From positions 1-64,000 of the forward strand of contig OMYY01000006.1 in assembly GCA_900315435.1 (NCBI GenBank): a stretch of DNA of 64,000 bases. The letters run 5' to 3'. A program made the translations under genes and the position numbers. The notes below the pieces were generated by a model. It worked only from the letters and a program-made list of their open reading frames with translations, had not been told where the DNA came from and ran no database searches. The DNA comes from an uncultured Spirochaetaceae bacterium. GTDB taxonomy: Bacteria > Spirochaetota > Spirochaetia > Sphaerochaetales > Sphaerochaetaceae. Of this stretch, positions 3,062 through 8,187 are shown piece after piece (position 1 is the first letter of the stretch; the number at the start of each line of letters is the position of its first letter).

Positions 3062-3430
3062 ATGGTCATGCAGGAAGCAGGCGAGATGTATCTCGAGACA
3101 ATCTTGAGGATCCAGGAAGAGCAGGGATATGCCCGTTCCATCGACGTCGCCAACCGCATGGGGTATTCGAAACCCACCATCAGCGAGCAGATGAAGAAGT
3201 TCCGCGAGGCGGGGCTGGTCTCGTTTGACGACGAGATGCATATCATCCTCACCCAGAAGGGGCTGAAAATCGCCAAGAAAACCTATGAAAGGCATGTGGC
3301 GATCACCCGCTTCCTTGAGGCGATCGGCGTCAGCCCGGCAACCGCCGAGAACGACGCCTGCCGTTTCGAGCACTATATCAGCGACGAAACCTTCAACTGC
3401 ATGAAAGCCTTCGCAAAGGAACACGCCTAG
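3062..3430 (+). CDS. DtxR/MntR-family metal-dependent repressor, iron-type metal site
   Basis: 122 residues: an N-terminal winged helix (helix-turn-helix about 25-50, VANRMGYSKPTISEQMKKF), wing LTQKGLKIAKK, and the helical dimerisation and metal-binding domain. Comparison with DtxR places Met9, Cys100, Glu103 and His104 at the DtxR primary metal site (Met10, Cys102, Glu105, His106), and ACRFEH closely matches DtxR ACRWEH. Bacillus MntR has Asp and Glu in place of the Met and Cys, so iron is the likelier cofactor. The C-terminal SH3-like domain of DtxR is absent, as in MntR. GAGGAG lies seven bases before the ATG. It probably represses the convergent feo operon through the operator-like palindromes at 6654-6697. 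Confidence 0.85.
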   Translation: MVMQEAGEMYLETILRIQEEQGYARSIDVANRMGYSKPTISEQMKKFREAGLVSFDDEMHIILTQKGLKIAKKTYERHVAITRFLEAIGVSPATAENDACRFEHYISDETFNCMKAFAKEHA

Positions 3431-3453
3431 CAGTAACCGTTCCGACATGCATG

Positions 3454-3490
3454 AAGGCCCTCCCCATCGGAATCGGAGGAGGGCCTTTGT
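3454..3490 (+). terminator. Rho-independent terminator after the DtxR gene
   Basis: Ten-bp stem AAGGCCCTCC (3454-3463) with GGAGGGCCTT (3478-3487), followed by TTGTTGGTTTT. It lies between convergent transcripts. Confidence 0.8.
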
Positions 3491-3505
3491 TGGTTTTGCA
3501 CCCGG

Positions 3506-3895
3506 TCACTGCCGGCTCGTCATCCTGATGGCCTGCACCACGCTGGAGCCGCCAGCAAGGACCATCGCGAGTGCAACCGCCTCGAGATGGTCGCTGGAAA
3601 GCCCCAGTGTCCGGGACAGGTACGCCTCCGTCTCTCGCAGGGAATCCCGTAGCCTGACCGCGCTCTCCCTGCCCTTTTCCGTCAGAGACACCTTTCCGTA
3701 GGACTCTTTCCAGACCAGGTCATGTGCCGCCAGCCGGGAAAGCATCGCGCTCACGCTGGACTTCTGGACCCCAAGGTGGAGCGCAAGATCCACCGAGCGG
3801 ACCTCGTTGCCACCCCGGGCAAGGATTGCCAGCAGATAGCGTGCCTCACGGTCGCTTATCCGAGCTCTGGCAGTGGCGGTCACAGCTTCCTGCAT
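3506..3895 (-). CDS. DtxR-like winged-helix protein lacking metal ligands, last gene of the feo operon
   Basis: 129 residues. The N-terminal winged helix is clear (REARYLLAILARGGNEV, VDLALHLGVQKSSVSAMLSRL, then the wing KVSLTEKGRESAVRLRD), and its arrangement matches the DtxR/MntR family. When aligned with the iron-type regulator at 3062-3430, every primary metal-ligand position is changed: Met to Arg19, Cys to Val107, Glu to Ala110, His to Met111, and the ancillary His to Leu86. It therefore probably does not sense metal in the usual way. It occupies the place where FeoC, another small winged-helix protein, is found in enterobacterial feo operons. The start overlaps the preceding Cys-rich gene by 50 bp and has no clear ribosome-binding site, so translational coupling is likely. 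Confidence 0.7.
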   Translation of the reverse strand: MQEAVTATARARISDREARYLLAILARGGNEVRSVDLALHLGVQKSSVSAMLSRLAAHDLVWKESYGKVSLTEKGRESAVRLRDSLRETEAYLSRTLGLSSDHLEAVALAMVLAGGSSVVQAIRMTSRQ

Positions 3896-4001
3896 AAGGG
3901 CAGAAGGCGCAATGTCCTTTCTTGTGCTGGCCGACCAGGTACCGGATGATGCCGATGACGATCGCCAGCAGGATCAGCGAGATACTGATGGTTGCAACCA
4001 T
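3846..4001 (-). CDS. FeoB-associated Cys-rich membrane protein
   Basis: 51 residues: one transmembrane helix (about residues 4-22, ISISLILLAIVIGIIRYLV), a basic HKKGH turn, then a cysteine cluster CAFCPYAGSCDRHC (Cys31, 34, 40, 44). This is the pattern of the small FeoB-associated Cys-rich proteins (PF12669) encoded directly after feoB in many bacteria. They are presumed to help FeoB handle or accept Fe(II), but their role is not proven. A run of eight G forms the ribosome-binding site, and the gene starts 11 bp after the feoB stop. Confidence 0.85.
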   Translation of the reverse strand: MVATISISLILLAIVIGIIRYLVGQHKKGHCAFCPYAGSCDRHCQSSDKRP

Positions 4002-6183: not shown

Positions 6184-6411
6184 TCAGACCACGTGGATGA
6201 TCGCTGCATCCTTCTTCCGGATAGTCAGCTGGTACCCACGAACCGTCACCTGGATCGGATCCCCGAGCGGCGCGACTTTCTCGACGTGCAGGGAGACTCC
6301 TTTGATGATTCCCATGGCCATGATGCGTTGTTTCAGCGCTCCATCGCCCGAGATACCCTTGACCACGGCGTCCTCTCCGACGTTGACCTCTGCCAATGTT
6401 CGATCACTCAT
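6184..6411 (-). CDS. feoA: FeoA-family protein (second of two)
   Basis: 75 residues with the SH3-like FeoA fold pattern: TLAEVNVGEDAVVKGI, LKQRIMAMGIIKG, and GDPIQVTVRGYQLTIRKKDAAIIHV. FeoA is a small cytosolic partner required for FeoB-dependent Fe(II) uptake. A GAGGAG ribosome-binding site lies eight bases before the ATG, and the gene is 17 bp ahead of feoB. Two adjacent feoA genes are seen in several anaerobic bacteria; whether the two subunits differ in role is unknown. Confidence 0.92.
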   Translation of the reverse strand: MSDRTLAEVNVGEDAVVKGISGDGALKQRIMAMGIIKGVSLHVEKVAPLGDPIQVTVRGYQLTIRKKDAAIIHVV

Positions 6412-6423
6412 CTCAACAACTCC

Positions 6424-6639
6424 TCAAACAAGAATACGCGCCGCCATCTCGCGACCAAGCGCGACGCGGGCATCGTCTTTTACCTTGACAATCAGATTCC
6501 CAGCCATCGAAGAGACGACTGTCACCTTGCTGCCTTCCACAATTCCAAGCTCACCGAGAAACTGCCTGATCCGGGGTTTCCCTCCGACAGAGCGGACAAC
6601 ATACTCTGTACCGATTTCACTTAATGTCAGTGGCAACAC
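6424..6639 (-). CDS. feoA: FeoA-family protein (first gene of the feo operon)
   Basis: About 71 residues from the chosen GTG start: LPLTLSEIGTEYVVRSV, IRQFLGELGIVEGSKVTVV, then the C-terminal strands with the basic-polar surface usual in FeoA. An ATG at 6663 would extend the frame, but it lies inside an operator-like palindrome and only a few bases from the predicted transcription start, with no ribosome-binding site. GAGGGG lies five bases before the GTG at 6639 and eight before a TTG at 6636; either gives the usual FeoA N-terminus. It is 12 bp ahead of the second feoA. Confidence 0.88.
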   Translation of the reverse strand: MLPLTLSEIGTEYVVRSVGGKPRIRQFLGELGIVEGSKVTVVSSMAGNLIVKVKDDARVALGREMAARILV

Positions 6640-6653
6640 GTACACCCCTCGCA

Positions 6654-6671
6654 GGTTAGCCATTGCTAACC
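6654..6671. promoter_or_regulatory. Candidate DtxR-type operator O1 upstream of feo
   Basis: Perfect palindrome with 7-bp arms GGTTAGC (6654-6660) and GCTAACC (6665-6671), resembling the GGTTAG/CTAACC half-sites of the DtxR/IdeR box. It lies just downstream of the predicted feo transcription start. Confidence 0.6.
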
Positions 6672-6679
6672 ATTCAAGA

Positions 6680-6708
6680 AGTTAGCAAACACTAACCATG
6701 TGTGTCAA
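6680..6708 (-). promoter_or_regulatory. Predicted feo operon promoter
   Basis: On the minus strand, consensus -35 TTGACA (6703-6708), a 17-bp spacer, and a weak -10 CTAACT (6680-6685). The spacer and -10 coincide with operator O2. Confidence 0.5.
6681..6697. promoter_or_regulatory. Candidate DtxR-type operator O2 inside the feo promoter
   Basis: Inverted repeat GTTAG (6681-6685) with CTAAC (6692-6696), sharing half-sites with O1. It overlaps the predicted -10 region and spacer, a classic repression position. Confidence 0.5.
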
Positions 6709-6846
6709 GGTATGTTCGATGTATCTAACTTTTTAGTTTAGAACAACTTATATAGATAACGCAAAAGATGTTCCCATGCAACAAGTTAGCAACGCCTACC
6801 ATCAAAGAGACAGGAAACCATCGTATTCCCCGCCACCCATTCACAG

Positions 6847-8187
6847 GTGTTGTTCCAGGAAGCTAGGAACCTGGTTTTCTCCTCCGCAAATCAGATGCAT
6901 GGAGGATGGCCACAGACGAAGAGGGCAAAGCCCAAAGGTGGCACCACAACTCCGGACAAAATGCCGAACTCGCATCCCGAGATGAGCGTGCACATCCTGA
7001 AAATATCCGATAGAATCAAGGACAACATCTCGCCTAGCGCCTTGGGATTATTCGATAGTGTCACAGAGGAAATCGAGGGAAAGCAGGTAATCAAAGTCCT
7101 TGTTTCCAGCGGACTTGAAAAACCCTATTACATCAAACGAAACGGAATGTCCCCTTCCGGTTGCTACAAGAGGGTTGGTACCTCTACCCTCCCCATGCCA
7201 ACGGCCATGATAGACGCTCTCTACTCAAGACGAATTCATACAACACTCAGAAACATCAAATCTCCCCGGCAAGATTTGGAATTCGCCCAATTGATGATCT
7301 ACTATCAGCAAAAAAGATTCGAGTTAAACGACCAATTTCTCAAAAGCTTGGAGCTCTATACAGAGGACGGGAAATTCAATTACGTCGGATATCTCCTGGC
7401 CGACGAAAACGCCGTTTCCATGAAAGTAGCGAAATATGCAGGAACCGACAAAGTCGACCTCCTGGAAAATGACGAATACGGATACTGCTCCATCATACAG
7501 GCGACCTACAGCATTCTGCAACGATTTCAGGTGGAGAACACGACGAAGGCGAGAATCACGAGTACGGTTAGGGAAGAGAAGAACCTTGTCGACCCAGTGG
7601 CGTTACGTGAGGCAATCATCAACGCTGTTGTCCATAACGACTTCACTCGCGAGATTCCTCCAGTCTTTGAGATTTTTTCAAACAGAATTGAAATCACCTC
7701 TTACGGCGGTCTCATTCTCGGACAGACCAAGGAAGATTTCTTCTCCTGCAGGAGTGTCCCTAGGAATAGGGAGCTGATGCGGGTGTTCAAGGACCTTGGT
7801 CTGGTAGAACAACTTGGTTCCGGAATGAGCAGAATATTGAAGGCCTACAATCGGTCCATTTTCAAAATCTCCGACAACTTCATCCAAGTCGTATTCCCTA
7901 TAGATAATACGAATGAGGGAATAAATGAGGGAATAAATGAGGGAATAAATGAGGGAATAAATGAGGGAATAAATGAGGGAATAAGCCAACGAGAAATCGA
8001 GATTGTGAAACAAATAAAGCTTAATCCTTCAATAACAATGAACGAAATCTCCCACCATCTAGGAGTCTCCATAGCAACTGTCGAACGCGATTTCGATGGT
8101 CTCAAAAAGAAGAAGATTATTGAGCGAAGGGGCTCTTTCAAGAACGGCGTGTGGATCGTGCAAGATCAATCCTCAAAACTCGATTGA
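6847..8187 (+). CDS. AlbA_2/divergent-AAA-type ATP-binding transcriptional regulator-like protein, N-terminus decayed
   Basis: The C-terminal two thirds matches putative regulators of the AlbA_2 (Schlafen AlbA_2) plus HATPase_c_4 type: DPVALREAIINAVVHNDF (N box), FSNRIEITSYGGL (G1-like), RNRELMRVFKDLGLVEQLGSGM, then a linker of six NEGI-type repeats and a winged helix (NEISHHLGVSIATVERDFDGL). The AlbA_2 part is damaged. The start frame gives ARNLVFSSANQMHGG, the expected continuation MATDEEGKA is in the +1 frame (about 6890-6995), and ILKISDRIKDNISPS returns to the first frame. An in-frame TAG at 6787 removes the usual N-terminus. It is either an expressed remnant (GTG 6844, TTG 6847 or ATG 6961) or an early pseudogene. 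The region is AT-richer than its neighbours. Confidence 0.6.
   Translation: MLFQEARNLVFSSANQMHGGWPQTKRAKPKGGTTTPDKMPNSHPEMSVHILKISDRIKDNISPSALGLFDSVTEEIEGKQVIKVLVSSGLEKPYYIKRNGMSPSGCYKRVGTSTLPMPTAMIDALYSRRIHTTLRNIKSPRQDLEFAQLMIYYQQKRFELNDQFLKSLELYTEDGKFNYVGYLLADENAVSMKVAKYAGTDKVDLLENDEYGYCSIIQATYSILQRFQVENTTKARITSTVREEKNLVDPVALREAIINAVVHNDFTREIPPVFEIFSNRIEITSYGGLILGQTKEDFFSCRSVPRNRELMRVFKDLGLVEQLGSGMSRILKAYNRSIFKISDNFIQVVFPIDNTNEGINEGINEGINEGINEGINEGISQREIEIVKQIKLNPSITMNEISHHLGVSIATVERDFDGLKKKKIIERRGSFKNGVWIVQDQSSKLD
7912..7983 (+). repeat. Six perfect 12-bp tandem repeats (AATGAGGGAATA)
   Basis: Six identical in-frame copies encode a repeated N-E-G-I linker between the ATPase-like domain and the winged helix. 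The absence of any base difference between copies points to recent slippage-driven expansion. Copy-number changes would alter linker length but not the frame. Confidence 0.95.

Follow-up and report, generated by a model that had tools for sequence, protein, structure and literature searches.

DtxR-family repressors are textbook metal switches. The iron uptake locus that opens the window (the whole 64,000-nucleotide stretch that we analysed, from an uncultured Spirochaetaceae bacterium) encodes two proteins of this family beside its feo genes: P1, which carries the primary metal ligands, and P2, in which they have been lost. What could a DtxR-type protein do at an iron uptake locus once its primary metal site is gone? 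The argument below refers to the following features.

3062..3430, plus strand: P1, DtxR-family sensor of 122 aa with an M-type primary metal site (open reading frame, Pfam, predicted structure)
3456..3490: GC-rich inverted repeat (GGCCCTCC...GGAGGGCC) where the P1 and P2 genes converge, read by eye
3506..3895, minus strand: P2, ligand-less (R-type) DtxR paralogue of 129 aa, ATG at 3895
3846..4001, minus strand: FeoB-associated Cys-rich protein of 51 aa (PF12669), overlapping the 5' end of P2
4013..6166, minus strand: FeoB (TIGR00437)
6184..6411, minus strand: FeoA2 (PF04023)
6424..6663, minus strand: FeoA1 (PF04023), first gene of the operon
6655..6670, no strand assigned: exact DtxR-like box, GTTAGCCATTGCTAAC, over the feoA1 start
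6681..6696, no strand assigned: exact DtxR-like box, GTTAGCAAACACTAAC, upstream of feoA1
6714..6729, no strand assigned: box with one mismatch, GTTCGATGTATCTAAC
6785..6800, no strand assigned: box with one mismatch, GTTAGCAACGCCTACC

Both reading frames are present where the original prediction had placed them, and both adjoin feo. The genes feoA-feoA-feoB-PF12669-P2 form one operon on the minus strand with P2 as its last gene; P1 is not a member of it and lies outside, convergent with the operon and facing P2. P2 had been described as encoded inside the feo operon at the place of FeoC, and of this the operon membership stands and the place is weakened, the slot after feoB being already filled by the PF12669 gene. 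An alternative P2 start is possible at a GTG (3883) with AGGA upstream, and the inverted repeat at 3456-3490 is a probable terminator common to P1 and P2. In a profile search of the source genome, no DtxR-like protein other than P1 and P2 rose above background. A predicted regulator (ORF 6847-8187) is divergent from feoA1, with two one-mismatch boxes in the intergenic stretch, and an in-frame tandem repeat at 7900-8020 encodes NEGINEGINEGI near its C-terminus.

The complete DtxR primary site ascribed to P1 is borne out: Met9, Cys100, Glu103 and His104 are all present, together with His78, and both Pfam domains score well above cut-off (PF02742 57.2 bits, PF01325 54.3 bits). Its ancillary site is poor (His78, Thr82, Glu96), and there is no SH3/FeoA-like domain. 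The predicted structure of P1 (pLDDT 93.2) has the same topology as the P2 model described below, at a sequence identity between the two proteins of only about 20%.

From its long helix up to and including helix 5, P2 itself aligns with DtxR ungapped, and because of this its residues at the primary site can be read off directly: Met10, Cys102, Glu105 and His106 of DtxR correspond to Arg19, Leu109, Val112 and Leu113. Of the residues first proposed for these positions (Arg, Val, Ala, Met) the arginine is right and the other three (107, 110 and 111) are shifted by two residues, and the loss of the primary site holds in either register. The ancillary-site positions hold Leu86, Glu90 and Glu105, with Glu90 kept at the place of DtxR Glu83 and Glu105 at that of His98, the latter shared only with the orthologue in the sister genome G004, so that P2 is stripped of its primary ligands and not, as had been claimed, of all metal ligands. 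In the Pfam search the N-terminal domain (PF01325) reaches 26.7 bits, just above the cut-off of 26 (33.4-35.4 bits in the orthologues), and the metal-binding and dimerisation domain (PF02742) reaches 20.9 bits, below the cut-off of 27. P2 also has no SH3 domain.

To see what fold such a sequence adopts we turn to an AF2 model of P2, built with 24 window and locus sequences (pLDDT 87.8, pTM 0.78). All six DtxR helices are present together with the wing (H15-26, H34-41, H45-57, a two-stranded wing, H73-97, H101-115, H117-128), giving the DtxR/MntR fold, an N-terminal winged helix followed by dimerisation helices. Foldseek against the PDB returns 87 matches at E<=0.001, and the 50 listed are all of the DtxR/MntR/IdeR class (MntR, from B. 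halodurans, E. coli and B. subtilis, DtxR, IdeR, SloR, ScaR and DR2539), the best with TMq of about 0.76-0.77, although by sequence the best Pfam score of P2 is to MarR_2 (PF12802, 33.1 bits against a cut-off of 27). The winged helix is thus kept, as predicted, both by PF01325 score and by predicted structure, and a fold of another kind, which would have spoken against the prediction, is not what the model gives.

Is P2 an isolated oddity? We searched 139 genomes of the order, spanning 22 genera in one family, with profiles and aligned 125 DtxR-like rows. Position 10 is Asp in 82 of them, whose site is otherwise complete, Met in 29 (the P1 type) and Asn in 4; four rows are odd, each in its own way, and the last six combine Arg with the loss of every primary ligand. 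These six are five distinct proteins, P2 occurring twice, and they come from three genera: P2, G004 (86% identical to P2), G024 (39%), G020 and G022. Arginine stands at the Met10 position in all five and in none of the 119 other rows, and it is the sole invariant residue at a ligand position among them; the primary site (Met/Asp 10, Cys/Glu 102, Glu105, His106) is absent in all five, P2 included, and the residues of the former pocket vary within the clade. P2 lacks cysteine, and its three histidines are not conserved; across the five proteins neither Cys nor His is conserved at any position, and on this ground we reject alternative metal ligands. A class-wide search (395 genomes) with a profile built from these five gives them 175-187 bits and everything else less than 88 bits. 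A collection scan with a P2 profile, whose patterns are narrow, returned one close relative, G004, and the ligand-less type was not among its other matches.

All five ligand-less genes adjoin feoAAB, and the predicted pairing of an iron-type sensor with a ligand-less paralogue at feo is supported, among other things by orthologues in three genera. In genus g1 (three genomes) the P2-type gene lies downstream of feoB and PF12669; in G020 and G022 it is divergent from feoA-feoA-feoB, the place taken by the P1-type gene in other genera. Profile searches found no P1-type (Met) sensor in either G020 or G022, whose DtxR-like relatives are Asp-type and Asn-type, respectively. In G020 a DtxR-type protein with ligands Asp, His, His, Glu and His and a C-terminal FeoA-like region (L139:3401-4078) is encoded directly after the third feoA-feoB. 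Proximity to feo is ordinary for DtxR-like regulators in the family, feoB lying in the flanks of 27 Asp-type genes in the survey of the order.

In a tree from which the ligand columns were removed the five ligand-less proteins form one clade (bootstrap support 100/99), and in a wider tree this clade (98/93) lies apart from the one that unites P1 with the family's other ligand-bearing sensors (98/95), long branches being a caution in both trees. By these sequences the five have a single origin, and P2 as a recent duplicate of P1 is not supported, with the same caution about long branches.

Arginine at the Met10 place also marks a second group of DtxR-like proteins, found in eight genomes (L275-L282) that belong to a different family within the class. 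This group has Ala/Glu/Gln for Cys102/Glu105/His106, keeps His79 and carries conserved C-terminal cysteines (LCRLVQF...C..LC..LYG...C), which suggest that these DtxR-like proteins have a site for metal or Fe-S; the group may read a different iron signal. One member (L281:3354-4145) lies directly 3' of feoB (L281:1008-3335).

P2 is also maintained by selection. Between P2 and its G004 orthologue dN/dS is 0.24 (0.07 for P1 and 0.06 for FeoB), with 0.10 over residues 1-72 (HTH and wing) and 0.44 over residues 73-127, the regulatory half. Compared with the G024 orthologue, P2 keeps 48% identity over the DNA-binding half and 23% over the remainder; for P1 and its orthologue the same two halves give 62% and 67%. 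Selection on P2 is purifying and constrains the DNA-binding half most; dN/dS and the orthologues together reject a pseudogene. The fast divergence of the regulatory half is compatible with a relaxed function as well as with a new one, and in that half the P2-type proteins of G020 and G022 share 48% identity.

Where might such a DNA-binding half act? The window holds four GTTAG-N6-CTAAC boxes (at most one mismatch) against 0.41 expected, all of them at feo (6655-6800), and the source genome has 9 exact boxes against 1 for a reversed control, counts on which we reject chance. Exact boxes against reversed control number 9 and 2 in G004, 15 and 3 in G020, and 5 and 3 in G024; G022 has the box without genome-wide enrichment (1 against 2). 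In the source genome boxes precede a FeoA-FeoB fusion, a 4Fe-4S ferredoxin and an MMPL transporter, all three boxed in G004 too, and further boxed genes encode a flavodoxin, an HMA protein with a weak FeoB_associated match and an ABC transporter; NifH-family proteins are boxed in G024 and G020. Because of these identities the boxed genes look like an iron regulon. The fusion (L160:1588-3930, G000:C33), with an exact box (39848) 34 bases upstream, is by its sequence a second ferrous iron transporter of the regulon. A 128-residue protein (L163:4040-4423) joins a PF12669-like membrane segment to an HMA domain and lies 18 bases behind an exact box (G000:C54:8721), and in G024 a similar HMA-like protein (L135:14792-15244) is encoded upstream of feo near two boxes.

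The P2-type gene appears to belong to the iron regulon in all three genera, since it lies either in a boxed operon or next to boxes of its own. G020 has two boxes near it, between it and the divergent feoAAB, and in G022 the genome's only exact box sits at its start, again between it and the divergent feoAAB. The boxes are presumably also read by P1-type sensors and therefore do not prove a P2 target; where P1-type genes stand beside feoAAB in other genera, boxes lie between them in 9 of 10 cases. Moreover, the DNA site of P2 could differ from the DtxR-type site, because the recognition-helix positions of DtxR are changed in the P2-type proteins (Pro39 to Ala/Ser, Gln43 to Ala/Thr/Gly/Val).

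We lean, with moderate confidence, towards the reading that P2 is a metal-blind DtxR-type DNA-binding regulator, made from the feo operon and acting on the GTTAG-N6-CTAAC boxes, which limits or reshapes feo expression. That P2 is a dedicated regulator working without metal sensing is probable because a ligand-less gene stands beside the same uptake genes in three genera, the evidence base for the type being five sequences; its binding to the boxes, its metal-independence and its limiting of feo are what we infer. At low iron P1 would release the boxes and the feo operon would come on, and since P2 is the last gene of feoA-feoA-feoB-PF12669 its level should rise when P1 lets go. P2 would then bind those same boxes without iron, either paired with itself or in mixed dimers with P1, and set the ceiling or the slope of feo expression, as a feedback brake or as a competitor of P1.

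How could the fold work without its metal? The invariant Arg19 suggests a built-in cation in place of the metal, and one could imagine that an arginine at the Met10/Asp8 place locks the repressor in its DNA-bound form, which would make P2 a metal-independent feedback brake on ferrous iron uptake. We regard this version as unlikely; the acidic partners of Arg19 are missing, which speaks against a simple metal mimic. We take B. subtilis MntR E11K (PDB 4hx8) to be a precedent for a metal-site change of this kind. Like P2 it and related entries have a basic residue at the metal site, and the P2 model matches 4hx8 in the PDB search; unlike P2 it is an artificial single substitution at another position, whereas P2 has lost the acidic partners too.

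It is likewise improbable, in our judgement, that P2 reads some other signal (a small molecule, a redox state or a partner protein) through a remodelled, hydrophobic ex-metal pocket. The regulatory half does remain under purifying, though weaker, selection and is shared to the extent noted above by G020 and G022, and the L275-L282 group, with the same arginine and its cysteine set, hints that such a change is feasible. However, the P2 clade has no conserved Cys, His or polar pocket residue besides Arg19, and the pocket residues themselves are variable.

A role chiefly as heterodimer partner of P1, poisoning or tuning it as a dominant negative, is a good deal more doubtful. The two proteins have the same predicted fold and occur in the same genome, and the P2 operon promoter carries boxes of P1-type sensors, but they belong to different clades with little sequence identity, and G020 and G022 have the P2-type protein without a P1-type sensor.

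The original prediction had also suggested that P2 may modulate FeoB; a FeoC-like role of this kind we now consider very improbable. P2 resembles FeoC (PF09012) in its small size, its winged helix and a gene that follows feoB in the same direction, as P2-type genes do throughout genus g1, and the G024 orthologue matches PF09012 at 13.0 bits. This is far under the cut-off of 21, however, and P2 has no PF09012 match (E<=1), carries DtxR dimerisation helices in its model and is constrained in its HTH half; its counterparts in G020 and G022 are encoded divergently from feo. FeoC has a C-terminal Cys motif, absent in Vibrio (PMC8749426); P2, unlike FeoC proteins with this motif, has no cysteines, and with no family match either, an identity as FeoC is rejected. 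That P2 is a metal sensor in decay is scarcely credible, since despite the fast divergence of its regulatory half the open frame, neighbourhood and constraint are kept in three genera, and dN/dS (0.10 in the HTH half) with conservation at 36-39% protein identity largely refutes it.

More generally, the fold and the gene setting of P2 are of known kinds. As in the DtxR/IdeR/MntR systems (C. diphtheriae DtxR, B. subtilis and E. coli MntR, D. radiodurans DR2539), we find a predicted winged helix with dimerisation helices and DtxR-like palindromic boxes at metal uptake genes; P2 differs in its four replaced primary ligands, with Arg at the Met10/Asp8 place, its missing SH3 domain and its PF02742 score under cut-off. 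Among spirochaetes, T. denticola TroR is a member of the DtxR/IdeR/MntR family (PMC2628430). For a ligand-less DtxR at feo the open-access literature that we searched held nothing relevant, and a survey of Feo systems does not mention DtxR (PMC8749426).

A conserved branch that retains fold, DNA-binding half and genomic address while discarding the switch would show a metal sensor turning into a metal-blind regulator. It would make the replacement of a metal by an arginine testable, and for anaerobic spirochaetes it points to a Feo regulator.
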